From NCBI RefSeq assembly GCF_008035925.1, contig NZ_CP036264.1:7907641-7971640 (forward strand): DNA of 64,000 nucleotides. The letters run 5' to 3'. The notes below the pieces were generated by a model. That model was not told the DNA's origin. It saw nothing but the letters and a program-made list of their open reading frames with translations, and searched no databases. Made by a program: the position numbers and the translations under genes. Shown in pieces: positions 47,762 through 61,545 of this stretch; within the stretch, counting starts at the first letter, position 1, and each line of letters begins with the position of its first letter. Source of the DNA: Stieleria maiorica (lineage in GTDB: Bacteria > Planctomycetota > Planctomycetia > Pirellulales > Pirellulaceae).

Positions 47762-48529
47762 ATGATGGATCTAACTCACCTGATATTGGACCTGCCATGC
47801 GGACGCCGTGGCGCGATGTTGCAAGCAGCCGTTTCGTTTCGCGACGACCTTGTGAGCGACCGAGTTGATGACATTGAATCGCTGCGAACGGCATTTGCAA
47901 TCGAATGGAAGCGTCAATATGAATGCCCAGTCCCGGTGAAAGGGCTTCAAGAGACGATGCAGCCGCCATTGCCCATCGGCACGGTGCTTGAGTTCAATAA
48001 GCTCATGCTGATGGACAGCGAAGCTGACATCGAGGCCGCGCTATCCGAGCTCATGGAGTTGCTTCACTCGAAAGTGTGCAAGGACGAAACGGCTGCGAAG
48101 CAATTGGTTCTGTTTCCGGTTGCCGAATCCTCCGACAACGATAGACAACAGCCAACTGCGAGCGTGGGAACGAACGTCAGCGAGTTGCAAACGCTGGTGA
48201 AATCGGGACATCGATTCTCGACGATCTATGCCGATCCTCCCTGGGCATACGACAACACCAGTTCACGTGGCGCGGCAGAGAATCACTACCAGACAATGAC
48301 CGTGGACGAAATATGCGCCGAGCCGGTCAGAGAGATTGTCGCCGAAAATGCCCATTTGCATCTGTGGACGACGAACGCCTTCTTGCGTGAGTCGTTTGAC
48401 GTGATCGAATCCTGGGGATTTAAGTTCAAATCGTGCTTTGTGTGGACGAAGCCAGATATCGGCATGGGGAATTATTGGCGCGTGTCCCACGAATTCCTGC
48501 TGCTGGGTGTGCGGGGCGCGCTGACCTTT
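47762..48529 (+). pseudogene. MT-A70 methyltransferase, 5-prime part, interrupted by IS66
   Basis: This codes for the first 256 residues of a canonical MT-A70 protein: an N-terminal region of about 145 residues, then DPPWAYDN near 159, the expected NHY motif, HLHLWTTNA and HEFLLLGVRG, ending at GALTF where the IS begins. The remaining C-terminus is at 50913-51098 in the right frame (RDNTMKSWIE onward to SPGPYLEMYGR). Unlike the paralogue at 45843, this copy had all catalytic motifs. The gene as it stands makes a truncated product adding VSAR from the IS end. Confidence 0.85.
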
Positions 48530-48547
48530 GTAAGCGCACGGTGAAGT
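48530..48547 (+). repeat. IS66 left inverted repeat
   Basis: An 18-base end, GTAAGCGCACGGTGAAGT, the exact reverse complement of 50888-50905. Confidence 0.95.
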
Positions 48548-48596
48548 CCATGTTGACGGCAGAACTAGTTTATTGGATTTCCTTGGAGGAGGTCCG

Positions 48597-48893
48597 ATGC
48601 GAAAACGATTTTCTGCCCCTCAGTGGGCTGCGTGGATGGAGCAGTTCGAATCCAGTGAACTGACGGTTGCCGAGTTTTGCCAACAGATCCATGTCAGCGT
48701 CAACTCGTTCTATGTTTGGCGACGGAAGCTCAAGGCGTCGCCCGTCGATCTGTTTGTTCCTGTTGTCGTCAAGCCAAACAGCCAAGTTTGCGTCGACTTC
48801 CCTTGCGGAGCCGTTCTCCGTGTCGACAACCAAATCGAATCGTTGCGACCCGTCTTGGAGACACTCGCTCAGATTCAAGGGGCGGAGGCATGA
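48597..48893 (+). CDS. tnpA: IS66 TnpA-type helix-turn-helix protein
   Basis: A 98-residue protein. The N-terminal helix-turn-helix (WAAWMEQFESS through VNSFYVWRRKL) is typical of the first orf of IS66 elements, which is needed for transposition, probably by binding the ends. A strong ribosome site GGAGGAGG lies 4-11 bases before ATG 48597. Its stop overlaps the tnpB start (ATGA). Confidence 0.88.
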   Translation: MRKRFSAPQWAAWMEQFESSELTVAEFCQQIHVSVNSFYVWRRKLKASPVDLFVPVVVKPNSQVCVDFPCGAVLRVDNQIESLRPVLETLAQIQGAEA

Positions 48894-49261
48894 TCGGGAT
48901 CCAAACCGGCTTCAAGATCTTTCTGTGCACGCAACCGGCAGACATGCGCCGCTCTTTCGATGGTCTCTCTGGCATGGTCACAACGATCATTGAGCAAGAT
49001 CCTCTGAGCGGCCAGTTGTTTGTTTTCCGCAATCGAAATCGTGACCGGCTGAAGATCTTGTACTGGGACCGAGATGGACTGGCCATTTGGTACAAGCGAC
49101 TCGAAAAGGGAACGTTTCAGTTTCCAACCGATCTTGTCGGCAAAGATACACGTCCTGAGAAGGCTGAGATTACAGCGCAACAGCTCTCGCTCCTGCTCGG
49201 TGGAATCGATTTGAGAAGCATCGAGCACCGCAAACGCTATCGACCGAAAAAAACTCGTTGA
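48890..49261 (+). CDS. tnpB: IS66 accessory protein TnpB
   Basis: A 123-residue protein. The IS66 TnpB signature is clear: MRRSFDGLSGMV, FVFRNRNRDRLKILYWD and GLAIWYKRLEKG, then PKKTR at the end. The length is normal. It is coupled to tnpA by an ATGA overlap and followed by tnpC after about 50 bases. Its exact role in transposition is not known; it is required in related elements. Confidence 0.93.
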   Translation: MIGIQTGFKIFLCTQPADMRRSFDGLSGMVTTIIEQDPLSGQLFVFRNRNRDRLKILYWDRDGLAIWYKRLEKGTFQFPTDLVGKDTRPEKAEITAQQLSLLLGGIDLRSIEHRKRYRPKKTR

Positions 49262-49311
49262 ATTTTTCATCGTCGGTCGAACGATATTGGGTTGGTTGTC
49301 ATATTAACGGC

Positions 49312-50883
49312 ATGAACATGGATGAATTGCCTGCCGATATCGACGAGCTACGCGAACTCGTGTTGAAGCTCGCTTCTTCCAACGATCAACTTGCCCAAAC
49401 GGTCTCCACGCAGCAAGCGAAGCTTGAAAAGCAGGAGCACAGAATTGCCGAGCTTCTCGCGGCTCTTCGCGGAAAGCAACGAGAGCGGATCGATCCCGAT
49501 CAACTGCTGCTCTTTGAGATCGGTGAGCTTGAGAAGCTGATCGAAGAAGAGCTGGAGGAATCCAAGCCCAGACGCGGACGAAAGAAGCGTCGTTCCCGGC
49601 GAATGATTCCCGACAACTTGCCACACGTGGAAGTCCTTCACGAACTTCCCGAGCAGGAGCGTCTCTGTCCGATCGATGGCAAACCGATGCCGGTGATTCG
49701 GTACGAGATCAGCAAGCAACTCGACTACGTTGCGGCGCAGATGCGAGTGATCGTGCACAAGCGAGCTGTGTACGCTTGCCCGGAAAAGCATGATCAGGCA
49801 ACCCTGCTGACCGCCCCCAAGCCGCCTGAGCCGATCGCCAAGGGCTTGGCCACCGCAGGCCTTCTTGCCCAAGTCGTCGTCGGCAAATTCGGTGACCACT
49901 TGCCCGGTTATCGACTCGAAGACATCTTCTCACGTCATGGCGTGCACATCCGCCGCAGCACGATCTACGATTGGCTGGCGGCCGTATCGGACCTTGTTGA
50001 GCCGCTTTACGAGCTGATGAAGTCGCGCTGCCTGCAGTCTCGCGTGATCCACACCGACGACACGCAGGTCAAGCTGATCGATCACGCGATCGGCGGTACA
50101 CGTATGGCACGGTTCTGGGCGTATCTTGGCGATCGCGGACACCCATACACGGTCTATGACTTCACGCAGACGCGAGAGCGGGCCGGGCCAGAACAATTTT
50201 TGAAAAACTACGAAGGTTACCTCCAAGCGGATGCTTACGGTGGCTATGACGGAATCTACTTGCAATCGCAAGGCAAGATCGCCGAAGTATCCTGCTGGGC
50301 GCACTGTCGTCGCTACTGGCACAAGGCGCGTGAGCAAGATCCTGCGCGAGCCCATCATGTCCTTGGCGTGATCGCGCGTCTTTACGAAGTGGAGCGTGCA
50401 GCGAGCGAATCTGATCGTGAGATCCTCCGGTCGATACGAGAGCAGCACGCGCTACCGCTGCTGAGGGACCTGAAGCGTTGGCTGGACGACGAGGAGTTCT
50501 TGCCGAAGAGTTTAATCGGCAAGGCGGCAACCTACACACGCAACCAATGGGAAGGGCTGAATCGCTATATCGAAAGCGGCGAGCTATCGATCGACAACAA
50601 CCGAGCCGAACGGGCGATGAAAAACGTCGCCCTTGGCCGCAAGGCCTGGCTATTCGTTGGAAGCACCGAAGCGGGGCATCGGGCGTCGCGACTGATGTCG
50701 CTGATCGCCAGTTGCAAAGAGAACCATGTGGAACCGTGGGCGTACATGCGGGCAGTCATCAGCGGGCTTCCCCGGGGAGTCGCAGTAGAAACACTGCTTC
50801 CAGATCGCTGGCTGGCTGACAATCCCGAGCATCGTTGGGAAATCGCTGACCAGCGAAAAAAGGAACGAGAAGCAAAGAGCTAG
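49312..50883 (+). CDS. tnpC: IS66 transposase (DDE), TnpC
   Basis: A 523-residue transposase. The N-terminal leucine-zipper-like region (about 5-70) precedes a zinc-finger-like part (RLCPIDGKPM and YACPEKH) and the DDE core: HTDDTQVKL (first D), LQADAYGGYDG (second D) and NNRAERAMKNVALGRK (E), followed by the IS66 C-terminal helix. ATG 49312 or 49318; an in-frame TTG at 49258 is less likely. No frameshift, so the product should be functional. Confidence 0.93.
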   Translation: MNMDELPADIDELRELVLKLASSNDQLAQTVSTQQAKLEKQEHRIAELLAALRGKQRERIDPDQLLLFEIGELEKLIEEELEESKPRRGRKKRRSRRMIPDNLPHVEVLHELPEQERLCPIDGKPMPVIRYEISKQLDYVAAQMRVIVHKRAVYACPEKHDQATLLTAPKPPEPIAKGLATAGLLAQVVVGKFGDHLPGYRLEDIFSRHGVHIRRSTIYDWLAAVSDLVEPLYELMKSRCLQSRVIHTDDTQVKLIDHAIGGTRMARFWAYLGDRGHPYTVYDFTQTRERAGPEQFLKNYEGYLQADAYGGYDGIYLQSQGKIAEVSCWAHCRRYWHKAREQDPARAHHVLGVIARLYEVERAASESDREILRSIREQHALPLLRDLKRWLDDEEFLPKSLIGKAATYTRNQWEGLNRYIESGELSIDNNRAERAMKNVALGRKAWLFVGSTEAGHRASRLMSLIASCKENHVEPWAYMRAVISGLPRGVAVETLLPDRWLADNPEHRWEIADQRKKEREAKS

Positions 50884-51162: not shown

Positions 51163-51675
51163 CTAAATCAGATCTCCAAAACTCGCGATCTTTAGCCTGA
51201 AGCAATGGTTGGTTTCCCAGTCAAGCTTGATGGCGTCGGCTTCCGCGATCGTAAGAACTTCTGCTTGAATTAGGTCAACGACAAGCGATTGTGTGCAATG
51301 CAGTTGTATGCCGGGGGCGAATTTGGTGGCACGTTTTCGTGCGTTGCGATCGTCAATGGCAAGGGCAATTGAGCGGTTCTTAGCGAGTGAGATTGCAGAA
51401 CACTCGCCCGTTCCAAGTCGCTTTTCACCGACTAGTGTGACAAAATCAGATAGTTCTGCTGGATCGTCTGCCGCGGTTTCAGCAAGCACACCATCCGCCA
51501 ACGCACTGTTGACAGCTTCGAATTGTTCGAGGAAATGCTCTTTAACTTCGTCTCTAACGTGGTCGCAAATCAAGAAATCGTATGACGGATGGGATTCAAG
51601 CAGATCAATTCTTCGGATCCTGGCAAAGTTAATGAGCACAGATGTGTCGAGGATCACTGTTGTCTTTGCATCCAT
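51163..51675 (-). CDS. PIN-domain protein
   Basis: A 170-residue protein with the PIN nuclease layout: ILDTSVLINFA (first Asp, about 9), DHVRDEV (acidic, about 38), GTGECSAISLA (Glu about 91) and IDDRNARKRA (Asp about 108-109). These four acidic positions bind Mg in PIN RNases. It follows the XRE/ImmA-IrrE gene by 32 bases on the same strand, so the two form a unit. It could be a toxin of a TA pair or a nuclease controlled by the peptidase-regulator. Confidence 0.82.
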   Translation of the reverse strand: MDAKTTVILDTSVLINFARIRRIDLLESHPSYDFLICDHVRDEVKEHFLEQFEAVNSALADGVLAETAADDPAELSDFVTLVGEKRLGTGECSAISLAKNRSIALAIDDRNARKRATKFAPGIQLHCTQSLVVDLIQAEVLTIAEADAIKLDWETNHCFRLKIASFGDLI

Positions 51676-51707
51676 TGCTAAAAGTCATTCCTCGACTACT
51701 AACTGCG

Positions 51708-52955
51708 CTATGCCGCCTCGGCAAGTTCCAACAAATCTGCTGCTTTGATGCCAAGCATCGAACTGAAGTCGCGTAGTCGCCCTTGCGACAATTCCTCGCG
51801 ACGATAAGCTTCGACGACAAGATTCAATACCTGCAGCCGAAGTACATCTTCGTCAAACTGGCTATCGTTTTCGCCTTCATCCTTAGCTTCGTCGAACAAT
51901 TGCAAAACAGTGAACACCGTTTTGGCAAGTGCTTCTTTTTCGAGCAGTTCAGATAGCTCATCTTTGGTGATAAACTCAAGTGACCGAAGCCGATAGCAAG
52001 TTGCCTGGTAGCTTGTACGAAAATAGCACATCAGGGATGCGACATCTTGATAGGTGACTTTGCTATTGCTGGCCTTGACGCGTTGCTTCGCTGCAACAAA
52101 TTCTTCCCCATGTGCAGAAGGATCGTAGACAATCTGTTCTATTCGGCTTGGGACAGTTTTTCTTCTATGCAACAAGAAGGAGTGGATCCCATCTGCTGGA
52201 AGTAGAAATGCTGCCGAAAAGGCATTTGCTCTTACTTCTCTAAGGTCCTTTCTGTTTCTGCTACTGCTTATGGTCGCGGTCGAGTTTCGGTCAAGCAGTG
52301 CATGAGCATATTCGTGGGCAAACGAAAACCGGCGTCTTGAAAGCGGATGATGTTGGTTGATGAGAATCGCGGAACCAAAAGTCGGGTGAAGGAGAAACAT
52401 CCCGGACATTTCGTCGGGAAGAGAAACTTTTGCCGCCCAAATGCCTTGTGCAGCTATCAGCTTTGCAAGATCTGGAAGCGGATTGCTTCCAAGAGAAAGT
52501 CTACGGCGTTCTTGAACGGCGACTTCAGCACCTTGTTCTACGGCCTCAATGGTCGATTGCGGTTCTGGCATCGCGTATTCTGGCGATGCATCCTCACTGG
52601 AAATTCCAAGTATCTCTTTTAAGTCATGCCCCTCGCGACAGATCGCAACATGGTTATTGACTTCTCGGCGTACCTCTGAGTCTTCAGAAAACTCTTCGTC
52701 GAGTCGATGAAGAACGACAAAGATATCTTCATTGGACGACGATTCTTCATCGAGAAGCTCAGAAACGGAGCGACCGAAGAATCGTGCAAGCTTGGTAAGT
52801 TCGCGAGTGCTGATGGATCGCTGTCCAGCCTCAATATTGACTACAGCGGTGCGTTGAATGCCAAGTTCGTCAGCAACTTGCTGCTGAGTGAATCCAGCAC
52901 TCTTTCGAGCTTCTTGAATCTGACGCCCCAGTAAAACGGTGTCGATCTTTGCCAT
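51708..52955 (-). CDS. XRE-type regulator fused to ImmA/IrrE metallopeptidase
   Basis: A 415-residue protein. The N-terminal helix-turn-helix (FTQQQVADELGIQRTAV, about 22-40) is followed by a linker and a zinc-peptidase domain with HEYAH near 212, the HExxH motif of the ImmA/IrrE family, then a helical C-terminus. Related proteins cut or act as repressors upon DNA damage or phage entry. GGAGGC precedes ATG 52955. Transcribed divergently from the sigma/ubiquitin-like operon; the shared palindrome (53104-53120) is the probable operator, making this the likely master regulator of both. Confidence 0.85.
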   Translation of the reverse strand: MAKIDTVLLGRQIQEARKSAGFTQQQVADELGIQRTAVVNIEAGQRSISTRELTKLARFFGRSVSELLDEESSSNEDIFVVLHRLDEEFSEDSEVRREVNNHVAICREGHDLKEILGISSEDASPEYAMPEPQSTIEAVEQGAEVAVQERRRLSLGSNPLPDLAKLIAAQGIWAAKVSLPDEMSGMFLLHPTFGSAILINQHHPLSRRRFSFAHEYAHALLDRNSTATISSSRNRKDLREVRANAFSAAFLLPADGIHSFLLHRRKTVPSRIEQIVYDPSAHGEEFVAAKQRVKASNSKVTYQDVASLMCYFRTSYQATCYRLRSLEFITKDELSELLEKEALAKTVFTVLQLFDEAKDEGENDSQFDEDVLRLQVLNLVVEAYRREELSQGRLRDFSSMLGIKAADLLELAEAA

Positions 52956-53081
52956 GCGATGCCTCCAGCCAGCGATTTTTCGAGCTGACAATAGCTTGAA
53001 AAAAACTGGCAGCCAAATGTCCATCCAATGATGAGGGAAAGGTCAATTTGTGAAAATTCTCCGATCTCTCATCTCAGATCC

Positions 53082-53142
53082 ATAGTACCTTATCAGGACA
53101 TGCAAGTCAAGATTTGACTTAAAAGTCCGATTGCGGTAAATT
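53082..53142. promoter_or_regulatory. Overlapping divergent promoters sharing one palindromic operator
   Basis: The perfect palindrome AAGTCAA-GAT-TTGACTT (53104-53120) supplies a -35 box in both directions. Plus: TTGACT (53114-53119), 17 bases, TAAATT (53137-53142), leading to the operon starting 53224. Minus: TTGACT (53110-53105), 17 bases, TACTAT (53087-53082), leading to the XRE/ImmA-IrrE gene at 52955. A dimer binding here would block both promoters, the classic layout for an autoregulating repressor. Confidence 0.75.
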
Positions 53143-53223
53143 CTACGTAAGCGGCAATGTCGCACACCTCTCTTGGGTGGCCTCAAGCTGCAAGTTGTTG
53201 AAATGAAAAGGACTTTTTAGCTC

Positions 53224-53466
53224 ATGGTTGCATCATTGGACTATTCACCTCGGTCGGCAGGAATCGAGTTGCGAGGGGGCTTAGGCAGTCGAAAACTGCC
53301 AGATTCCGAGTATGGCTGCCGGTGGGACAGCCCTTTCATCATTGAGAAGGTGGAATCGCGGCTATCCGGTCCCGAGAAGACGGCAACGGTCTACGACGAA
53401 CAAATGTCACGGCTAATTCGCAACCGAGTTCATTCGGAGAACCTTACGGTGAGGGCAAGACAATGA
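53224..53466 (+). CDS. Small protein leading the sigma/ubiquitin-like operon
   Basis: An 80-residue protein with no recognisable domain; it is polar, with YGCRWDSPFIIEKVE in the middle and a basic C-terminus. AAAAGG lies upstream of ATG 53224, and its stop overlaps the sigma factor start (ATGA), arguing that it is a real gene. An even shorter frame of five codons (53203-53220) lies between ribosome site and start. Position as first gene of the operon hints at a regulatory or antirepressor role, which is speculative. Confidence 0.5.
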   Translation: MVASLDYSPRSAGIELRGGLGSRKLPDSEYGCRWDSPFIIEKVESRLSGPEKTATVYDEQMSRLIRNRVHSENLTVRARQ

Positions 53467-54275
53467 CGAAAGAGCCGATCAGGGTTGCGACAGCCGTGCC
53501 CCCGCTTCGCAAACGCAAGCAATCAACGGGCGAGGTTTATTCGCGCCGTACACCAGTCGAACAACTGCTTGCTGCACTTCATGAGATTTCAATCGAAGAA
53601 GTTGCTAGGCGCTCGGAGATCTTGGATTCAGCTGATCCCGAATATATTCCGCCGGAAGCTGTCATGCATTTTGTTCGATTCGCGAAGAATTGCAGTGATC
53701 AGTTAGCCTACAAATCTCTTTTCCGTAGCCTTCGTCAACGTTTTCTTCAACTCCTACGGGTGAATCGGAAATCTCTGGGCGGCGATCGATATATCGAGGA
53801 CTCGTATCAAGCCGCAGTCAGAGACGCCGTTGTCGACAACGTAACGGAGAAGCTCTGTCATGATCGCAATGCCTACGATGATCGATTGGACTATTTCGAA
53901 ATCAATTTCAATAGTGCGGTAGCCAGGGCGCGGCGCACGGCAAAGCGTGACTCGTCCGAGAATCGAAAACGGGAGAATTGTCAGTCACTTGAGGCAGTTG
54001 TCGAATCGGCGGATCTTGACGGAGTCGATACGGCTATCAGGTCGCTTCGAGACGTTTCGGAAAAATTTGAAGACTTCTCTTACCGATCAGGCGTGTATTC
54101 TGCGATTAGCCTTCTGCCAGATGAAGAAAGGCAAGTAATTCAACTATTGGTGGAGGGATTCAAGATAAAGGAAATTGCGGAACTTGTTGGTTGCACAGAG
54201 AAGACTGTGTCAGCTCGAAGAAACCGGGCTCGTGCCAAGCTCCGCGAAGAACTGTATTTGGAGGACAGGGTATGA
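53463..54275 (+). CDS. Sigma-70-family RNA polymerase factor, diverged
   Basis: A 270-residue protein. The C-terminal sigma region 4 is clear: LLPDEERQVIQLLVEGF followed by the helix-turn-helix IKEIAELVGCTEKTV and a basic end (about 215-262). The N-terminal half is helical and basic with a region-2-like stretch, but its conserved motifs are weak, so it is a diverged ECF-type factor. It overlaps both neighbours by 4 bases. It should direct RNA polymerase to its own set of promoters, perhaps this operon itself. Confidence 0.78.
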   Translation: MTKEPIRVATAVPPLRKRKQSTGEVYSRRTPVEQLLAALHEISIEEVARRSEILDSADPEYIPPEAVMHFVRFAKNCSDQLAYKSLFRSLRQRFLQLLRVNRKSLGGDRYIEDSYQAAVRDAVVDNVTEKLCHDRNAYDDRLDYFEINFNSAVARARRTAKRDSSENRKRENCQSLEAVVESADLDGVDTAIRSLRDVSEKFEDFSYRSGVYSAISLLPDEERQVIQLLVEGFKIKEIAELVGCTEKTVSARRNRARAKLREELYLEDRV

Positions 54276-54865
54276 GCCACAATCAAAACTTAGAGGAAGT
54301 GCTCGATGCATTTTCAATGGAACTATCACATGATCGCGAAACCCTTGCTCGATACGTAGAGAGTTATCCCGAGTACAAGAATGAGCTTATCGAACTTTCC
54401 TTTGAAATCCGTGCGGTTGAGAATGAAGCTCGATTGAAGCCGGAAGCAATCGATGATCCCACGTTCAGCTCTGCGTGGAATACTCTTCAGGCGGCAGGCT
54501 CATCATCGGCTCGATCTACGAACCCCTTCCGCAAGTTTCAGGGGAAGAAGTTTGCCTCGCTATGTAAATCACTTGGACTCCCGAAGGCCTTTGTTGTTGC
54601 CATTCGCAATAGGCAAGTCGAGTTTGAGAGTCTGCCGGAACGGTTTTTGGTGGCGGCCTCAACTGCACTGGAGTCGACGCTGGAGGATTTGAAGACTTTT
54701 CTGCGAGAGCCGCCGAACGTGCTTCAAACGCTGGAATTCAAGGCAGACAAGAAGCCACAAATCGCTCAGCAGGTTACTTTTCAAGAGTTAATCGAGAACA
54801 CGGAATTGACAGACGAGGAGCGAAAAACAGCAGTGGGGTATCTCGGTCATGACCGATCGAATTGA
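54272..54865 (+). CDS. Putative partner of the sigma factor
   Basis: A 197-residue acidic, mostly helical protein (LARYVESYPEYKNELIEL near the N-terminus; LCKSLGLPKAFVVAIRNR in the middle resembles a helix-turn-helix-like segment). It has no zinc anti-sigma motif and no membrane segment. Start ATGA overlaps the sigma gene; its end overlaps the helicase gene by 17 bases. Being locked to the sigma gene it may be a soluble anti-sigma or co-regulator. No family recognised. Confidence 0.6.
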   Translation: MSHNQNLEEVLDAFSMELSHDRETLARYVESYPEYKNELIELSFEIRAVENEARLKPEAIDDPTFSSAWNTLQAAGSSSARSTNPFRKFQGKKFASLCKSLGLPKAFVVAIRNRQVEFESLPERFLVAASTALESTLEDLKTFLREPPNVLQTLEFKADKKPQIAQQVTFQELIENTELTDEERKTAVGYLGHDRSN

Positions 54866-57800
54866 GCTTGCAAGACGACGAGCAGCAGAGCTTCATGCAG
54901 CCGCAGTTTCTGATGGTGGTGATCCGTCCAAGCCATACGATTTCGTTTGTCGAGAGGCTGCACGACTAGAAATTGATGTTAGCCGAGTTCCTGTGGACGA
55001 TGTGCGACTGTGCGGCGGGCGTGCTTTGTTCGATCCCGAGGCATGGCTAATTCTCCACGAAGACAGCGGCAGCGCTTTCACTGACGCTTTTCTTGTTGCG
55101 CACGAAATTGGGCATGTTGAATTCGGTGGAGAAGCTGAATTCCTCGCTATCACCGACATTGACCCAGAGCGGTCCTCGGGTTCCACCGGCGTTGGAACGG
55201 ACAGGGTGGTTGATTACAGCAACCGCGCACGGCGTGAGGTGCAGATGGACCTCTTCGCTAGAGAGTTGTTATTACCCCGCAATTGGATCCGAACGCTCCA
55301 TCTAGAACAAGAGCAGACCGCTAGTCAGATTGCAGCGTTGATTGATGCTCCACTCCCGGTAGTCTTTCAACAGCTACTTGATGCGATATTTCTGCCAGAG
55401 CTGGTCGAAGAGTATAAGCCGGAAGTCGCTATCAAGTACAACGATCGTCAGCTGGAGGCGATGCGTTTCTCGGGTGAGAACGCGTTTCTACTCAAAGCAG
55501 GACCGGGCACCGGAAAGACGCGGACTCTAATCGGTCGTATTGAGCATTTGGTCAGCACAGGTGTTTCGCCAGAACGCATACTGGTGCTGACGTTTTCTAA
55601 CAAAGCTGCGGGGGAGTTGTCAGATCGCCTCGCGACAATGAATCCAGACGCTGCTGCAAGGGTTTGGGTGGGAACTTTTCACTCATTCGGACTCGATATT
55701 GTCCGACGATTTCATGACCTGCTGAATCTCCCCAGTGACCCTCGGCTTATTGACCGAGCGGAAGCGATAGAAATGCTGGAGGGGGTCTACGCTGGGCTGG
55801 AGCTGAACCACCTAAAGAACCTGCAATATCCTTCACTTGAGATTCGCCGTGCTCTGGACGCTATTTCCCGAGCGCACGATGAAGTGGTTGGGCCGGACCG
55901 CTATCGCTCGTTGGCGGAGACGATGCGGGCAAACGCGAGTGAAGAAAAAGCAATCACTCGCGCAGAAGAGTGCCTTGATGTAGCGACTATTTTTGAGGCC
56001 TATGAGGAGCTGAAAATTTCCCGTGGTGGTGTCGATTTTGGCAACCTTGTTTCGTTGCCGGTGAAGCTTTGTGAGGAAATAAGCGATGTCCAAGAGCACT
56101 TGTCTTCACTTTACGAACACGTTCTCGTTGATGAGTTTCAGGACGTCAATCGAGCAAGCGTGCGACTTCTTAAGGCGTTATCACCATCGGGGAAAAACCT
56201 TTGGGTTGTGGGTGATGCTAGGCAGTCGATCTATCGTTTTCGCGGCGCATCCTTGTTCAATATGCAGAGGTTCTGTGAAGACGATTTTCCAGGTGGCACT
56301 ACGGGCGAGCTCGATCTGAGCTATCGAAGCGTTCCAGAGATTAGCGGAACCGTCTACCAATTTGCCAATTCGATGGTCGACGTGAGCGATGACACGACGT
56401 CTATTGAGACCACGCGCGACTCAATGGAGCACCGTCCAGAACTGCGAGTGGTCGAAAAAAAGACTGATGAAGTTGCCGCGATTGCAGATGCGATTGTAAC
56501 CATGCGAGATGACGGTTACTCCTACCGAAAGCAAGCCGTGCTATGTTCTGGCAATGATCGATTGGCGCAACTTGCCAACGATTTGGAGCATCGCGGTATT
56601 CCGGTTTTGTTCTTGGGAAACGTCTTCGAGAGAAGTGAGATTCGAGACCTGCTGTCGATCGTTTCTCTCATGGCGGATCGACGCGCGATGGGTCTTCTCC
56701 GGATTGCGACAATGAACGAGTTCTCAATGCGGCTATCTGATGCTTCGGCGTTGATCGATCATCTGCGAGCAAGCAGTACGCCGGCAATGAAGTGGCTGTC
56801 TGACTCTTTGGACGATGTAGAACTGACTGAGCAAGGTGTAGCATCTCTGGAAAGACTGCAAGCCGCGCTGGCGGGTTTTCACCCCGGCTCTCATCCTTGG
56901 ATACTTCTGGCAACACTACTATTCGATCGAACACGAATTGCCGCTAACCTGGCCATGGCCGATGATGTCTCAAGCCGAGCACAAGGAATCGCGATCTGGC
57001 AGTTAATGAATTTTGCTCGACTGATTCCTGCTGGAGAAGGGACCCCGACTTTTCGTCTACTGGATCGCATTCGTCATCTTGTCCTCAACTCAGATGATCG
57101 CGAGCTGCGCCAACTTCCCAAAGCGGCAGAGTCTATTGACGCGGTGAGATTGATGACGATGCACGGAAGCAAAGGACTAGAGTCTCCAGTCGTCCACATA
57201 CCAGGCCTCAATTCTTCAAGTATACCTTTGTCGGCTGGATTTCAGCTCTCGCGAAAAATCACACCACCAGATGGGATGATCGAAGGCACGTCCGAATCTG
57301 GCTATGACGCGGTCAAGAACGGTTTGGAAAACGAGCAGGCATGTCTGCTTTTCGTTGCTCTCTCACGAGCGGAAGACCGTCTTTTCCTTTACCGAAACAA
57401 GAAACGCTCCGACGATGCGCGACAATCCCCATCGAAGTTTCTGGAATGTTTGCAAGGGCATGTTGACGAATGGGAGATTGAGGCTGACGGTGAGGTTGCA
57501 GCCGACCAGGAGACTGATGCGTGGAGAGTAACAGTAGAGGAACCAATTTCGGTAACGGATCATCAGGTTCGACTCTACGATAAATGCCCACGCCGATTCC
57601 TCTATTCCCACATTCTTCAGACGGGAGGTCGCAGAACGGAAACGCAATACATGCAGTTGCACGCCGCTGTGCAGGATGTCGTGCAACATGTTGCATCGAA
57701 TCACATCAGTCGGCCCTCTCGCGATGAAGCTGAGAGATTGCTCGAAAATGCGATGGTGCAGCGTGGGTTTTCGGCCGACGCATCGTCGGTGGAGTACCGA

Positions 57801-58268
57801 AAAATCGCTGTTGATCTCGTTCGATTTCTAATCGAATGTGCCTCAGGCGCGGAGACACTACCGCCTGAACCAATGATAGTACAAATTACAGGAGGGACGA
57901 TAGAGATCGTTCCTGACCAGGTCGTTCGACGAGAGGACGGTAGCCTATCGATTCAACGGATTCGCACCGGACATGTTGTCAAAAAGGATGTGGAATCGAT
58001 TGAGTCAAAGGCATTTGTTCTTGGGACAGAAGGGCTCTCCGAACGTACCGTCGCTGAAGTTGTCCACTTGAGCGATGGAAAAGTGACGCCGCTGCCGACG
58101 TCCGCGCGAAAACTCGACAATGCTCAAAAGCGACTGGACGAAATCGGTCTTGAAATCTTATCCGGCAAGTTTGGATTAAAAACTAGCGATACCTGTCCGC
58201 TCTGCCCAGCGTACTTCGTTTGTGGCAAGCTACCGGCTGGGGAATTATCCAAGAAAATCTCTGCCTGA
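54849..58268 (+). CDS. ImmA/IrrE peptidase - UvrD helicase - PD-(D/E)xK-like fusion
   Basis: A 1139-residue three-part protein. First, about 1-195 is a zinc peptidase of the ImmA/IrrE type with HEIGH at about 85-89. Second, about 200-885 is an SF1 UvrD/Rep helicase: motif I GPGTGKT near 218-225, TFSNKAAGEL, motif II DEFQD near 428, GDARQSIYRFRG, HGSKGLE near 772 and VALSRAEDRLF. Third, about 905-1139 is a RecB/AddB-type region with YDKCPRRFLY and a Cys cluster CPLCPAYFVC near 1117, suggesting an iron-sulfur nuclease. In that domain the usual D-x-K step appears as IRTGH after EDGSLS, so cleavage ability is doubtful. Confidence 0.85.
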   Translation: MTDRIELARRRAAELHAAAVSDGGDPSKPYDFVCREAARLEIDVSRVPVDDVRLCGGRALFDPEAWLILHEDSGSAFTDAFLVAHEIGHVEFGGEAEFLAITDIDPERSSGSTGVGTDRVVDYSNRARREVQMDLFARELLLPRNWIRTLHLEQEQTASQIAALIDAPLPVVFQQLLDAIFLPELVEEYKPEVAIKYNDRQLEAMRFSGENAFLLKAGPGTGKTRTLIGRIEHLVSTGVSPERILVLTFSNKAAGELSDRLATMNPDAAARVWVGTFHSFGLDIVRRFHDLLNLPSDPRLIDRAEAIEMLEGVYAGLELNHLKNLQYPSLEIRRALDAISRAHDEVVGPDRYRSLAETMRANASEEKAITRAEECLDVATIFEAYEELKISRGGVDFGNLVSLPVKLCEEISDVQEHLSSLYEHVLVDEFQDVNRASVRLLKALSPSGKNLWVVGDARQSIYRFRGASLFNMQRFCEDDFPGGTTGELDLSYRSVPEISGTVYQFANSMVDVSDDTTSIETTRDSMEHRPELRVVEKKTDEVAAIADAIVTMRDDGYSYRKQAVLCSGNDRLAQLANDLEHRGIPVLFLGNVFERSEIRDLLSIVSLMADRRAMGLLRIATMNEFSMRLSDASALIDHLRASSTPAMKWLSDSLDDVELTEQGVASLERLQAALAGFHPGSHPWILLATLLFDRTRIAANLAMADDVSSRAQGIAIWQLMNFARLIPAGEGTPTFRLLDRIRHLVLNSDDRELRQLPKAAESIDAVRLMTMHGSKGLESPVVHIPGLNSSSIPLSAGFQLSRKITPPDGMIEGTSESGYDAVKNGLENEQACLLFVALSRAEDRLFLYRNKKRSDDARQSPSKFLECLQGHVDEWEIEADGEVAADQETDAWRVTVEEPISVTDHQVRLYDKCPRRFLYSHILQTGGRRTETQYMQLHAAVQDVVQHVASNHISRPSRDEAERLLENAMVQRGFSADASSVEYRKIAVDLVRFLIECASGAETLPPEPMIVQITGGTIEIVPDQVVRREDGSLSIQRIRTGHVVKKDVESIESKAFVLGTEGLSERTVAEVVHLSDGKVTPLPTSARKLDNAQKRLDEIGLEILSGKFGLKTSDTCPLCPAYFVCGKLPAGELSKKISA

Positions 58269-58353
58269 CTTACCGATTTTGCTGATCTCACGCGATTAAC
58301 TCTTCAGACCGAGGCAATTCCGCCTTCGGCAAACCTCTGAGGAGATTTTTGAA

Positions 58354-59055
58354 GTGAGTGATAGAAATACAAAAAACAAAGGCTTTCGTGTGTTGGTCGC
58401 AAATGACCAGCTGAAATTCAAACCTTATCAAGTCGACGATCCTGTTCCACTGGGTCGTCAGATTCTGGAAATCGCAGGCTACGACTCGGACGGTGATGCG
58501 AGTCTTGCTGCAATCCTAGATAACGGTGACTTCGAGGACATCCGTCTGGATGAAAAAGTCGACCTGCAAAAGCGTGGAGCTGAGCGGTTTATTGCCTTTC
58601 GCAGTGACCGAAGCTTTCGTTTCGAGGTCGAGAAAGACCAGCAGCACTGGGGAAAGCCACTAATCAGTGGTCAGGTTCTGCGGCGACTTGCGAAGGCAAG
58701 TGATGGCGAAGTCGTTTTTCTGTCAGTACCTGGCGGTCAAGATCGTGTAATCGATCGCACTGAACTGGTTGATTTGAATGAGCCTGGGGTGGAGCGGTTC
58801 TTTAAGGGTCCCAAGCCCGATCCGAGCGTCCAGATCATTGTCAACACTCGCGAAAAGACTGTTCCGTCGAAAGACGTTACTTTTGATCAAATCGTTCAAC
58901 TTGCGTTTCCTGGAAACCACGGTGAGAACGAGGAGTTCACGATTACCTATGACGGTGCATTGTCGTGTCCGTCTGACGGCAATCTTGGTGCTGGTGGAAC
59001 TGTTCAGGTTAAACATGGGACGATTTTCAATGTCAAACGAGCTATTCGATCGTAG
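58354..59055 (+). CDS. Triple ubiquitin-like protein (Multi_ubiq family)
   Basis: A 233-residue protein made of three consecutive ubiquitin-like beta-grasp repeats (about 11-87, 88-158 and 159-230). Each begins with a beta strand (RVLVAND, FRFEVEK, VQIIVNT) and has the helix with a Q-I-L/V core, and the first two end in ERF-type blocks. The C-terminus is NVKRAIRS without the usual diglycine. GTG start at 58354 with GAGGAG 10-15 bases upstream. It sits after the helicase gene (86-base gap) and overlaps the E1-like gene by 26 bases. It should be the modifier of the conjugation system. Confidence 0.82.
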   Translation: MSDRNTKNKGFRVLVANDQLKFKPYQVDDPVPLGRQILEIAGYDSDGDASLAAILDNGDFEDIRLDEKVDLQKRGAERFIAFRSDRSFRFEVEKDQQHWGKPLISGQVLRRLAKASDGEVVFLSVPGGQDRVIDRTELVDLNEPGVERFFKGPKPDPSVQIIVNTREKTVPSKDVTFDQIVQLAFPGNHGENEEFTITYDGALSCPSDGNLGAGGTVQVKHGTIFNVKRAIRS

Positions 59056-60205
59056 TGCCGACCTGAAACGCCTGCGTGAGGAGGGATACTGCGTCGAGAA
59101 AAACGGCGGATTCCTTCTCATGCGGGACGTTCCTTACGTCGATGCGGACCGAAACGTCCGTCACGGAACTTTGGTTTCCGAGTTGAGCGAGTCGGGCAAC
59201 CAGACTCACAAACCCAGGAATCACCAAGTGCATTTTGCTGGTGAGTCTCCCTGCGATACTTCTGGAAAGCCGCTAAACATCAATGATCGTGGTGCGAATA
59301 TCAAACTCGCCAACGGGATGGTGGCTACGCACTCGTTCTCTTGTAAGCCGCAAGGTGGGTATTCTGACTACTACGAGAAGATGACTACGTACGCAAATAT
59401 TCTGGCTGGTCCCGCATCAGTGATTCGCCCTGGCATTTCGCCAAAGTCACTGCGTGTACCCTCCGATGACGAAGACACGGTGTTTAACTACACCGAAACG
59501 GCCTCCGATCGTGTTGGCATAGGCGAACTGACGCGGAAGTTGTCGAGCGAAGTGATCGCGATTATTGGTCTCGGGGGCACTGGCTCGTACGTGTTGGATG
59601 GTGTTGCCAAGACGCCCGTACGTGAAATTCACTTGTTCGACGATGATGTGTTTCTTCAGCACAATGCCTTTCGTGCTCCCGGAGCGGCTTCGATTGAGCA
59701 ACTTCGTGAGGTCATTCCGAAGGTCGAATACTTTTCCAGAATGTATTCACAAATGCGTCGCGGCATTGTGCCGCACAAAGTGGCGATCGGGCCGTCTAAT
59801 GTGAATTTGCTTGATGGTGTGACATTCGCATTCCTGTGCATGGACGCTGGCGAAGCAAAGAAAGCGGCTATCGAGAAGCTTGAAGCAATGGATGCATCGT
59901 TCATCGATGTTGGCATGGGGATCGACTTAGAAGGCGAGTCGCTTAGCGGAATCTTGCGTGTTGCTGCAAGTGTGCCTAACAGGCGAGACCATGTTCACAA
60001 GGGTGCTGTGCCGTTTAAGGCCGACGCCGAGGCGGACTTGTACGCCTCAAATATTCAGGTCGCTGAGCTGAATGCTCTAAACGCGATGTTGGTAATCGTA
60101 AAGTGGAAACAGATTCTGAATTTCTATTGCGATCTGAAAGGAGAGCTCTATTCAACCTACACCCTTGATACGAACAAAATAAATAATGGATTTAACGGCT
60201 CATGA
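59030..60205 (+). CDS. ThiF/E1-like enzyme with N-terminal (possible E2-like) domain
   Basis: A 391-residue protein. The N-terminal part (about 1-165; DUF6791-like pattern with RDVPYVD, GESPCDTSG and DYYEKMTTYA) precedes a ThiF/E1 adenylation domain: nucleotide loop GLGGTGSYV near 180-188, acidic LFDDDVF near 205, NAFRAP, and FLCMDAG with Cys about 270. E1 proteins activate a ubiquitin-like C-terminus with ATP. The N-terminal domain holds a conserved-looking Cys (about 75) in a context that could be an E2 site, an inference from fold patterns only. ATG 59030 overlaps the modifier gene; its stop overlaps the next gene by 4 bases. Confidence 0.82.
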   Translation: MSNELFDRSADLKRLREEGYCVEKNGGFLLMRDVPYVDADRNVRHGTLVSELSESGNQTHKPRNHQVHFAGESPCDTSGKPLNINDRGANIKLANGMVATHSFSCKPQGGYSDYYEKMTTYANILAGPASVIRPGISPKSLRVPSDDEDTVFNYTETASDRVGIGELTRKLSSEVIAIIGLGGTGSYVLDGVAKTPVREIHLFDDDVFLQHNAFRAPGAASIEQLREVIPKVEYFSRMYSQMRRGIVPHKVAIGPSNVNLLDGVTFAFLCMDAGEAKKAAIEKLEAMDASFIDVGMGIDLEGESLSGILRVAASVPNRRDHVHKGAVPFKADAEADLYASNIQVAELNALNAMLVIVKWKQILNFYCDLKGELYSTYTLDTNKINNGFNGS

Positions 60206-60642
60206 AGTATTCAACACTGAAACACAGATTCGTCGTTCATTTCCCGGACGAACTTGAGCCCGGTGTGCTGTACATTTCGATCGAGTTTAAGAGTGTGTCG
60301 CACCTTTGCTGTTGCGGCTGTGGCGAAGAGGTCGTCACGCCACTGAGTCCAGCTGATTGGCGAATCATCTATGACGGCGAATCGGTTTCACTAAACCCAT
60401 CGGTTGGGAGCTGGACGCTGGCGTGCCGTTCGCACTACGTGATCACCCGCGGGCAAGTTCGGGTTGCAGGGCAATGGACTGATGAGCAAATCGCCGCGGG
60501 AAGAAGAAGGGATCGCCTGGCCACAGAGCGGCAATTCGGAAATGCAGTTCAACAGCCAGCTAGTCGAGAGTCGAACAATCAAGTCGTGGAAAAGCCGCGC
60601 TCGTGGTTTGCAAGATTTGGTTCCTGGATTTTCGGTGGATAG
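60202..60642 (+). CDS. DUF6527 (BubE-like) protein of ubiquitin-like systems
   Basis: A 146-residue protein. The DUF6527 pattern is plain: GVLYISIEFKS, HLCCCGCGEEVVTPLSP, then SLNPSVGSW and CRSHYVI, with Cys/His residues that probably bind zinc or form a catalytic site. This family accompanies E1/multi-ubiquitin genes and, as I recall, has been proposed to act as the system's peptidase. It starts ATGA over the E1 stop. The last 40 residues are basic with RSWFARFGSWIF, a possible membrane-proximal tail. It ends the operon; a tRNA-like scar follows 174 bases later. Confidence 0.8.
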   Translation: MKYSTLKHRFVVHFPDELEPGVLYISIEFKSVSHLCCCGCGEEVVTPLSPADWRIIYDGESVSLNPSVGSWTLACRSHYVITRGQVRVAGQWTDEQIAAGRRRDRLATERQFGNAVQQPASRESNNQVVEKPRSWFARFGSWIFGG

Positions 60643-60815
60643 GTTGCGATGCCAGTTTTTAGCGCTCAGTGCCCGGGGCATTTCCGGGGCAGAGTTGGCA
60701 ATTTGAAGCCAATTTGAGTAACATTGAACAAGCGTTGATAAGCGATGCAACTCCCCGCAATATCCAGTGTCCTAAACGTAAAATAAGCGTTAGTTCAATT
60801 GAGCCTGACTAGATT

Positions 60816-60855
60816 CGGGACGTAGAGGTCGCTAGTTCGAATCTAGTCGCCCCGA
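60816..60855 (+). other. tRNA-like remnant, probable att scar
   Basis: CGGGACG (60816-60822) can pair with CGCCCCG (60848-60854), six of seven, as an acceptor stem. TAG follows as tRNA positions 8-10. The T-arm is GCTAG-TTCGAAT-CTAGT (60831-60847), and A60855 would be the discriminator. No D-arm or anticodon arm is present, so it cannot be a working tRNA. It resembles a tRNA-Pro-type end, and a 3-prime fragment of this kind is what integration of an island at a tRNA leaves. Confidence 0.6.
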
Positions 60856-60857
60856 CT

Positions 60858-61251: not shown

Positions 61252-61545
61252 TTAGCGTGCCGGCGAGGACCAGCTTGAGCGTAACGCCAATCCGTGCTCC
61301 CCCAACACCTGAATGATTCGTTCGACACTCTTGGATCCGAAGTTTGGGATCCTGTCGAGCTCTGCGCGCGTTAACTCAATGAGTTCGCTGACGTACAAGA
61401 CGCCGGCTTCCTCCAGTCCGTTCACCGTTCGGACATCCAATTCAAGCTCCGCAACCGCGGACGCTAGCATTCTTGTTTTTTTCTGCTCGGCGACCCACTG
61501 TTGGTCTAACGGAATCCGTGTCCTTGCCATCTCGCATCGCTCCAT
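61252..61545 (-). CDS. Stand-alone RNA polymerase alpha C-terminal-domain-like protein
   Basis: A 97-residue protein. Residues about 35-90 (LELDVRTVNGLEEAGV, then LTRAELDRIPNFGSKSVERI and GLALR) follow the pattern of the alpha-subunit C-terminal domain, including the NFGxKS helix-hairpin-helix that contacts DNA. The alpha N-terminal assembly domain is absent, so this is a free alpha-CTD-like protein. A similar helix-hairpin-helix fold in another protein cannot be excluded. It lies outside the island. The start is 61545 or the ATG six codons in. Confidence 0.75.
   Translation of the reverse strand: MERCEMARTRIPLDQQWVAEQKKTRMLASAVAELELDVRTVNGLEEAGVLYVSELIELTRAELDRIPNFGSKSVERIIQVLGEHGLALRSSWSSPAR

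Follow-up and report, generated by a model that had tools for sequence, protein, structure and literature searches.

The window analysed here is a stretch of 64,000 nucleotides of Stieleria maiorica (contig NZ_CP036264.1, positions 7,907,641 to 7,971,640) within a single-contig genome of 9.89 Mb, and this work concerns a unit of six core genes on its forward strand, which encode a sigma factor (SIG), a small partner protein (PAR), a helicase fused to an M78 metallopeptidase (HEL), a protein of three tandem ubiquitin-like (Ubl) domains (MUB), an E1-like protein (E1) and a DUF6527 protein (ZNF) (Table 1). The genes are tightly packed: ATGA junctions join SIG with PAR and E1 with the DUF6527 gene, PAR and HEL overlap by 17 nt, MUB and E1 overlap by 26 nt, and the sole intergenic gap among the six is one of 85 nt between HEL and MUB. 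An earlier note on this DNA had described one transcription unit of seven genes, most pairs being linked by ATGA or short overlaps. The linkage was borne out and six of the genes were confirmed, whereas the seventh, an 80-aa open reading frame at 53224-53466 with a weak PADLOC match to IetS (7.7e-5), had tblastn relatives at 0 of 104 loci (L018-L121) and is probably not a gene. Gene order and overlaps agree with one unit, but a single transcript as its only product is put in doubt, because a conserved pattern of sigma-promoter type lies in the 85-nt gap, and the Ubl genes may start separately from it.

Table 1. Positions of the genes and sequence features discussed, in window coordinates unless a locus is named (CDS, coding sequence; HTH, helix-turn-helix; ECF, extracytoplasmic function; AF2, AlphaFold2; CBASS, cyclic oligonucleotide-based antiphage signaling system)
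Feature	Position	Strand	Evidence
SIG, sigma-70/ECF-type sigma factor	53463..54275	+	TIGR02937 48.5 bits; Sigma70_r4_2 2.8e-12
P1, promoter pattern of sigma type within the SIG CDS	54080..54108	+	-35 TTACCG 54080-54085, -10 CGATT 54103-54107
PAR, partner of 197 aa, predicted to be an anti-sigma/HTH protein and to be cut by the M78 domain	54272..54865	+	present in 101/101 loci; AF2 model
HEL, M78 (IrrE-like) metallopeptidase, superfamily 1A UvrD helicase and PDDEXK-type C-terminus	54849..58268	+	Pfam M78 1.6e-8, UvrD 3.6e-57, PDDEXK_1 6.4e-7
P2, sigma-type promoter pattern before the Ubl cassette	58270..58298	+	-35 TTACCG 58270-58275, -10 CGATT 58293-58297
Leader with predicted hairpin near the MUB ribosome-binding site	58298..58353	+	window z -4.4
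MUB, three tandem Ubl domains, GTG start	58354..59055	+	three PF14452 matches
E1, DUF6791-ThiF, ATG at 59030	59030..60205	+	DUF6791 1.8e-54, ThiF 4.7e-8
ZNF, DUF6527 protein, conserved Cys/His	60202..60642	+	PF20137 1.3e-23
XRE-M78 repressor/antitoxin-like protein (neighbour, not core)	51708..53024	-	Pfam
PIN-domain-like protein adjoining XRE-M78 (neighbour, not core)	51163..51675	-	weak Pfam PIN 0.055; PADLOC PDC-S70 1.7e-11
tRNA-Pro fragment (3' part, 44 bp, duplicated), probably marking the right end of an integrated element	60814..60857	+	
CBASS operon preceded by the promoter pattern (third copy)	L040 15743-18859; L054 15793-18902		

Recurrence of the control module and exchange of the Ubl cassettes

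The SIG-PAR-HEL module was followed through plasmids and genomes. Among plasmid records, tblastn found 115 with E1 and 92 with HEL at 1e-80 (at 1e-5, HEL matched 964 records, mostly in part, these being other UvrD helicases), and 21 plasmid loci of our own choice were opened, 16 via HEL and five via E1. In addition, 84,980 species genomes were scanned using aligned M78 regions of HEL, and the best 80 of at least 286 relatives were taken. When home-made profiles were run over all 101 loci, SIG and PAR matched in every one, HEL was near full length (above 1200 bits) in 97, and both Ubl and E1 matches lay within the stretch in 92 of these 97. Among the other five, L031 has an IS66 insertion sequence (IS) behind HEL, with a Ubl match further on where the stretch ends, L039 has Ubl alone, L041 has JAB and E1 with no Ubl recognised, the contig of L061 ends within HEL, and in L119 HEL is cut short with other genes behind it; HEL is truncated in L066 and L076 and, at contig ends, in L077 and L103. 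By record titles, some of them of metagenome-assembled genomes, the gene order recurs in Pseudomonadota, Planctomycetota, Acidobacteriota, Myxococcota, Verrucomicrobiota and one cyanobacterial plasmid.

A complete unit also lies between IS elements near fimH/gntP in the chromosome of Escherichia coli CP61_Sichuan (L176), its SIG frame being open for 277 codons from a TTG; one blastn search with a single helicase gene from Kluyvera, in which the unit is also found (L053), a search that divergent copies may escape, matched 2 E. coli records among 5426 genomes and found the full unit in one of them. Two scans of viral contigs gave one E1 match (L018) and two weak M78 matches; in L018, the E1 and DUF6527 genes open an 8.9-kb IMG/VR contig. 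The earlier note had treated the sigma/helicase and Ubl genes as parts of one system and had proposed looking for their order in other genomes. The sigma-UvrD-Ubl-E1 order does recur across several phyla, and the two halves, rather than occurring only apart, stand together in the great majority of loci with a near-full HEL. On these sequence comparisons we regard the gene order and the conserved element described below as almost certainly real, and by their recurrence the sigma, helicase and Ubl genes are one system. Next to the unit in L023, L025, L035, L037 and L041 stand pairs of exonuclease and ATPase genes, which annotation or inspection by eye marks as SbcCD-like.

The cassettes behind the module are of several kinds. 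By best E1 model, 62 are of type A (DUF6791-ThiF, one of them without DUF6527), 22 of type J (JAB-ThiF) with Ubl, plus L041, six of type B (Ubl, E2-like DUF7665, JAB, ThiF), one of type M and one of type R, and L025 has two cassettes. The type J E1 of L022 matches Prok-JAB-ThiF in Pfam, and the DUF7665/E2-like protein of type B (L034) gave no relevant match in the PDB. On a FastTree tree of HEL with 87 rows, which has several long branches including that of the window sequence, cassette type changes at least nine times, or 12 times with all groups counted, and the well-supported branches alone force five changes for A, five for J and four for B. Judged from this tree, cassettes were exchanged among control modules. 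In Planctomycetota, PF14452 matches occur in 15 of 392 genomes, the S. maiorica genome included, and 14 stretches of 8-20 kb each were fetched from the others; with the home-made profiles, 0 of the nine Ubl-matching stretches (L124-L132) held a complete SIG-PAR-HEL module. Since the module is found with Ubl genes in 92 of 97 loci, yet Ubl genes occur without a complete module in nine planctomycete stretches, the control module appears to accompany Ubl cassettes, and these can live without it.

A two-box element before the Ubl genes and inside SIG

The HEL-MUB gap carries a conserved two-box element, TTACCG-N17-CGATT (P2 in the window), which is non-palindromic, has a rigid 17-nt spacer and is placed before the Ubl genes in the manner of a -35/-10 pair. 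Among 97 gap regions (the window and 96 loci, L025 being treated apart), TACCG-N17-CGATT occurs in 80, against about 0.5-0.6 predicted from the remaining sequence of these loci, and the relaxed form T[TA]CCG-N16..18-CGATT in 87; when TACCG and CGATT were paired at any distance of 8-28 nt, the spacer was 17 in 80 of 80. An exact copy inside SIG (P1) is found in 79 of the 97. The loci are not independent, and the distinct sites number 66 of the 80 in the gap and 63 of the 79 in SIG. The -35 box reaches into the 3' end of HEL in most loci of type J; in L024, an IS separates HEL from MUB and the element is kept 80 nt before MUB, and in L025, where the cassette is turned round, both cassettes have the element, one of them as TTCCG. 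From P2, the Ubl genes may be startable on their own, besides possible read-through from upstream.

The P1 copies lie in one constant reading frame (Tyr-Arg...Ala-Ile), which allows codon choice to be compared. Of 85 A- and J-type loci, included whether or not they held the motif, 83 have ATT as the last codon, although ATT makes up 34% of Ile codons in other parts of these genes; the Tyr codon is TAC in 82 of 82 cases, versus 49% elsewhere in the same genes; and CG closes the codon preceding Ile in 84 of 85, including three with Ser or Thr in place of Ala. Read from these codons, the constraint on P1 is on the DNA and not on the protein.

The pattern is almost confined to these loci. The S. 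maiorica genome has four matches to TTACCG-N17-CGATTR, namely the two operon sites and two elsewhere on the other strand, and none to the reversed control. In 33 genomes (218 Mb), which we chose from those of 80 loci and of which one had no match at all, there are 66 matches, tallied by eye as 62 in these loci and 4 elsewhere, versus 2 for the reversed pattern. The element was found in 0 of the nine planctomycete Ubl stretches without a complete module, in about 350 nt before the Ubl gene, and divergent SIG types carry, by eye, variants of it (TTCCG...CGATC or GCGACT). In the E. coli locus, which played no part in the definition of the motif, exact sites stand 207 nt ahead of PAR and 77 nt ahead of MUB; with one mismatch allowed, at least two sites also arose in 8 of 200 shuffles. 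We consider it highly probable that SIG is the factor using this element. In the Robbsia locus (L032), the SIG module and the Ubl cassette are divergent, with a palindromic stretch, TTTAGAGTGTTTACTCTAAA, between them (5599-5749).

Two planctomycete loci, L040 and L054, contain the pattern a third time, after the DUF6527 gene and ahead of HNH-SAVED, CD-NTase and E2-like genes. PADLOC assigns these to CBASS in L040 and L054, respectively (effector 6e-137 and 1.8e-139, cyclase 8.3e-114 and 2e-111, E2 1.3e-57 and 1.4e-55), and Pfam finds SAVED (5.8e-48) and DncV-like (2.1e-11) domains in L040. By these profile matches, a CBASS operon is set behind the same promoter pattern, an arrangement seen in 2 of the 101 loci.

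Encoded proteins and their relation to described systems

SIG passes the curated superfamily model TIGR02937 over residues 122-264 (48.5 bits against a cut-off of 42.9); Sigma70_r4_2 matches 24 of 32 SIG members, Sigma70_ECF matches the window copy only, and the SIG profile finds FliA (9.8e-4) as its sole PDB match at 0.01. In pairs of ECF sigma and anti-sigma factors, the sigma gene overlaps a small partner gene, and a dedicated -35/-10-like element is used. Here SIG likewise overlaps PAR and a candidate element of this kind is present, but PAR appears to be a soluble HTH protein without a recognised anti-sigma domain, and one candidate target promoter lies within the sigma gene itself. The AF2 model of PAR, built from 43 rows (predicted local distance difference test score, pLDDT, 86; predicted template modelling score 0.56), has a helical N-terminus, an HTH domain at about 81-149, a lower-confidence linker with conserved Lys157 and Lys161-Pro162, and a C-terminal pair of helices. 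VIA aligned the HTH domain with NGO0477 (Z 6.5), DdrO (5.0) and CapH (4.9), and also with SinR and the 434/P22 repressors, a Z of about 5 being common for small HTH domains, and by sequence the PAR profile had one match only in the PDB (E 0.95). From the model, PAR is predicted to carry a Cro/C1-type HTH domain with a weak resemblance to those of DdrO and CapH.

The peptidase and the motor of HEL look intact: HExxH with Glu130 is present in 102 of 102 rows, the Walker A Lys in 101 of 101 letters, and the UvrD/PcrA-like motor as a whole is kept; PADLOC models of the GajB helicase match the protein. Like the AddAB, RecB and Cas4 helicase-nucleases, HEL combines a UvrD motor with a C-terminal PDDEXK match bearing a C...CxxC...C pattern, which we take to resemble an Fe-S site and whose four Cys are kept in 97/99, 96/96, 97/97 and 96/97 letters. 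It differs from them in that an M78 domain is added N-terminally and the catalytic (D/E)xK motif, as placed in our alignment, is gone, with an acid at 1037 in 0 of 98 rows, Lys at 1039 in 16 of 98 and never both, so the PDDEXK nuclease is predicted to be dead. A second M78 protein lies next to the unit in the window, in a divergent, toxin-antitoxin-like pair of XRE-M78 and PIN-like genes (51163-53024), and the earlier note had assigned control to this XRE-M78 protein. That assignment was not supported: relatives of the pair adjoin the operon at 2 of 104 loci, L048 and L049, where the counterparts are 44-48% identical and which are near-copies of each other despite titles of Gemmataceae and Acidobacteria, and the M78 domain fused to HEL is more likely to be the controlling peptidase.

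In the Ubl cassette, MUB has the PDB relatives 9cd2 (3.9e-29) and Ubl-BilA 8u38 (7.8e-20), and its C-terminal residue is Ser in all 54 distinct A-type sequences, 37 of which end in TRTVQS. This terminus suggests that MUB needs no processing, which fits the absence of a JAB gene; Pfam found neither JAB nor a separate E2 in the window unit. The AF2 model of E1, which is of moderate quality (pLDDT 72), has BubCD as its best solved match (Z 21.8) over residues 163-393, the ThiF part, and the J-type E1 of L022 matches Citrobacter BubCD at 3.9e-23. The DUF6791 part is modelled in the order helix-strands-helix with invariant His67 and Cys77, ten residues apart (numbering counts two codons before the ATG at 59030), features that suggest a possible E2 fold, in a part that the fold search barely covered. 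The DUF6527 protein keeps Cys36-38, Cys40, Cys75 and His78 in 52 of 52 A-type sequences and probably binds metal.

As a secondary matter, the A-type leaders between the -10 box and MUB fold better than their shuffles (46 distinct leaders, mean z -2.94, 37 below -2), and 27 of the 46 have their final AGG base-paired. A consensus structure from 38 leaders had no pairs, the alignment having slipped, and one from 18 leaders chosen from the 46 had 12 pairs, four with changes on both sides. Translation control by the leader is possible; in the window the hairpin is followed by a T-run, and attenuation or termination may therefore occur there.

The Ubl/E1/DUF6527 trio has been known since 2006. The available text of Iyer et al. 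(2006; PMC1779556) defines class 6e operons by a polyUbl, a JAB-E1 or X-E1 and a metal-binding protein, and names Mesorhizobium mlr6139 as the type of the triple-Ubl family. The window likewise has a triple Ubl (the three PF14452 domains of MUB), an E1 with a non-JAB N-terminal domain and a cysteine-rich partner; domain X, we infer, is DUF6791, and both kinds of E1 fusion are represented, DUF6791-ThiF in the window and JAB-ThiF in L022. Of the class 6e metal motif C-x3-C-x(35-38)-H-x2-C, the window protein keeps C36-x3-C40, its second pair being C75-x2-H78. The inactive E2/RWD-like domain of class 6e has no separate gene in the window, and the helix-strands-helix order of DUF6791 may be noted beside it. 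By its PDB names, Bub, with an E1-JAB fusion (BubCD) and a separate E2 (BubB), is not matched by the window unit, whose E1 lacks JAB and which has no E2. The earlier note had called the arrangement non-standard. This appears to hold for the control module: the words 'sigma', 'helicase' and 'uvrd' have 0 occurrences in the accessible main text of PMC1779556, a SIG-PAR-HEL module is not named in the accessible text of PMC13373217, and literature searches, some swamped by unrelated words, returned no paper describing a sigma/UvrD/Ubl control module. It does not hold for the trio, which resembles class 6e. The same text of PMC13373217, a paper in EMBO J, describes the related Bub/Bil operons as putative immune pathways and reports that 219 of 544 Bub operons carry CapW or CapH+CapP and 59 carry CapK+CapS, CapH+CapP being named damage-responsive.

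A proposed immune switch and its alternatives

In the CapH/CapP, DdrO/IrrE and ImmR/ImmA pairs, an HTH protein is cut by an M78 peptidase; IrrE cuts DdrO, and CapP cuts CapH. The present unit resembles them in having an M78 peptidase with intact HExxH and Glu and a predicted HTH partner beside an immune-type operon; what sets it apart is the fusion of the peptidase to a helicase and an output that would run via a sigma factor with promoters of its own. Based on these features, we propose, with a probability of about 0.6, that the unit is a mobile, self-contained immune switch in which a helicase-protease frees SIG from PAR and SIG transcribes the cassettes. At rest, SIG, PAR and HEL would be made at a low level and PAR would hold SIG inactive. 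HEL, as a UvrD motor with a dead nuclease, could then engage abnormal DNA, such as single-stranded DNA or ends arising from phage or damage, upon which its fused M78 peptidase would cut PAR, as IrrE cuts DdrO and CapP cuts CapH. The freed SIG would direct RNA polymerase to the TTACCG-N17-CGATT promoters, with P2 turning on the Ubl, E1 and DUF6527 genes and P1 renewing PAR and HEL, thus providing both reset and amplification, and E1 would activate the triple Ubl, which could be conjugated to targets or act against the invader in some other way. The parts of this proposal are not equally firm. The recurrent gene order, the element with its position and the state of the HEL motifs come directly from sequence, and the HTH domain of PAR from a model; recognition of the element by SIG, the anti-sigma role and cleavage of PAR, the DNA trigger, conjugation and defence against phage are inferred. 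That PAR is an anti-sigma factor cut by the M78 domain is only slightly favoured; an antiphage purpose is likely, and a damage- or phage-triggered conjugation system, as suggested by the earlier note, is the best reading. The fullest version, in which a dead-nuclease helicase senses invader or damage and destroys an HTH-type anti-sigma factor, and the sigma factor reads near-unique promoters of exchangeable Ubl cassettes and, in some planctomycetes, of CBASS, has about an even chance.

Several observations weigh against the proposal. The exact P2 element is missing from 17 of the 97 gap regions (L024, L031-L039, L058, L059, L061, L073, L102, L111 and L119), which include most type B, the type M and several J loci, several of them with near variants, and no TTACCG element was seen in the Robbsia locus. 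Many loci are near-copies, and 21 of the 101 are plasmid loci of our own choosing, five of them reached through the E1 query. In 32 SIG members, Pfam gave no separate match to sigma region 2 at 0.01. For PAR, Foldseek returned weak matches (E 0.39 at best), its VIA scores are of a common size, and the loss of the HEL nuclease motif depends on where we placed that motif in the alignment. Weak SIG-profile matches also occur in stretches counted as module-less, namely L124 3428-4060 (24 bits), L125 11559-12230 (16 bits) and L130 13727-14458 (26 bits).

PAR could also be a DNA-binding repressor instead of an anti-sigma factor, that is, a classical Cro/C1-type protein removed by the HEL peptidase, SIG being merely a target gene that amplifies the response. 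Its HTH domain aligns with the N-terminal domains of DdrO and CapH, proteins of the kind that M78 peptidases cleave, and one such pair, CapH+CapP, belongs to the damage-responsive regulators named in the available text of PMC13373217. We nevertheless hold this unlikely, as the element is non-palindromic, with a rigid spacer and a -35/-10-like position, and no shared operator was seen upstream of SIG by eye in a partial listing, no systematic search having been made. If instead the element were the site of another host factor, or a DNA or RNA element of another kind, and SIG had other targets, the position of P1 within coding sequence and the regions lacking an exact P2 would be easier to understand; the concentration of 62 of 66 matches in SIG loci, the absence from the nine module-less planctomycete Ubl stretches and the variants that go, by eye, with divergent SIG types make this the most improbable of the readings considered.

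The intact UvrD/PcrA-like motor and the GajB matches, which bring to mind the role of that helicase in Gabija, could also mean that HEL is itself an effector acting on invading DNA and that the Ubl system regulates or marks it. The lost nuclease motif and a peptidase motif kept in every row point rather to sensing or signalling, and an effector role for HEL seems very unlikely. Somewhat less remote, but still quite unlikely, is that the unit serves the maintenance of a plasmid or an integrative and conjugative element, or a stress response (e.g. to host DNA damage or conjugation), and not immunity. Plasmids carry many of the copies, with 71 of 92 HEL records (1e-80) typed as conjugative or mobilizable, and the window unit stands at the end of a probable integrated element; against this, CBASS shares the promoter pattern in L040 and L054, and the related Bub/Bil operons are putative immune pathways in the accessible text of PMC13373217. 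The immune switch is preferred here.

As to the mobile setting, the 44-bp tRNA-Pro(cgg) fragment behind ZNF, a repeat of the gene's 3' part, matches an intact gene about 106.7 kb upstream, at the other end of the probable element (contig positions 7861773-7863219), where a tyrosine integrase and parA/parB lie next to it. The unit thus probably forms the terminal cargo of an integrated element of about 106.7 kb. Within the window, at 48570-50883 and 47762-48544, IS66-like genes stand right behind a seemingly interrupted MT-A70-like methyltransferase reading frame, names given by eye, and just outside the element, at 61252-61545, lies a gene for a stand-alone 97-aa protein resembling the C-terminal domain of the RNA polymerase alpha subunit (PF03118, 3.8e-16).

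In conclusion, this work bears on how bacterial ubiquitin-like systems stay silent and get triggered, as in several phyla the unit appears to come equipped with a sensor, a brake, a sigma factor and promoters of its own. The locus in the E. coli chromosome makes this question testable, the promoter pattern is specific enough to seek further members of the regulon, and portable sigma/promoter pairs could serve as orthogonal switches. If the proposal is true, it would reveal an immune regulon run by a sigma factor, in which Ubl conjugation would be linked with CBASS by a shared promoter pattern.

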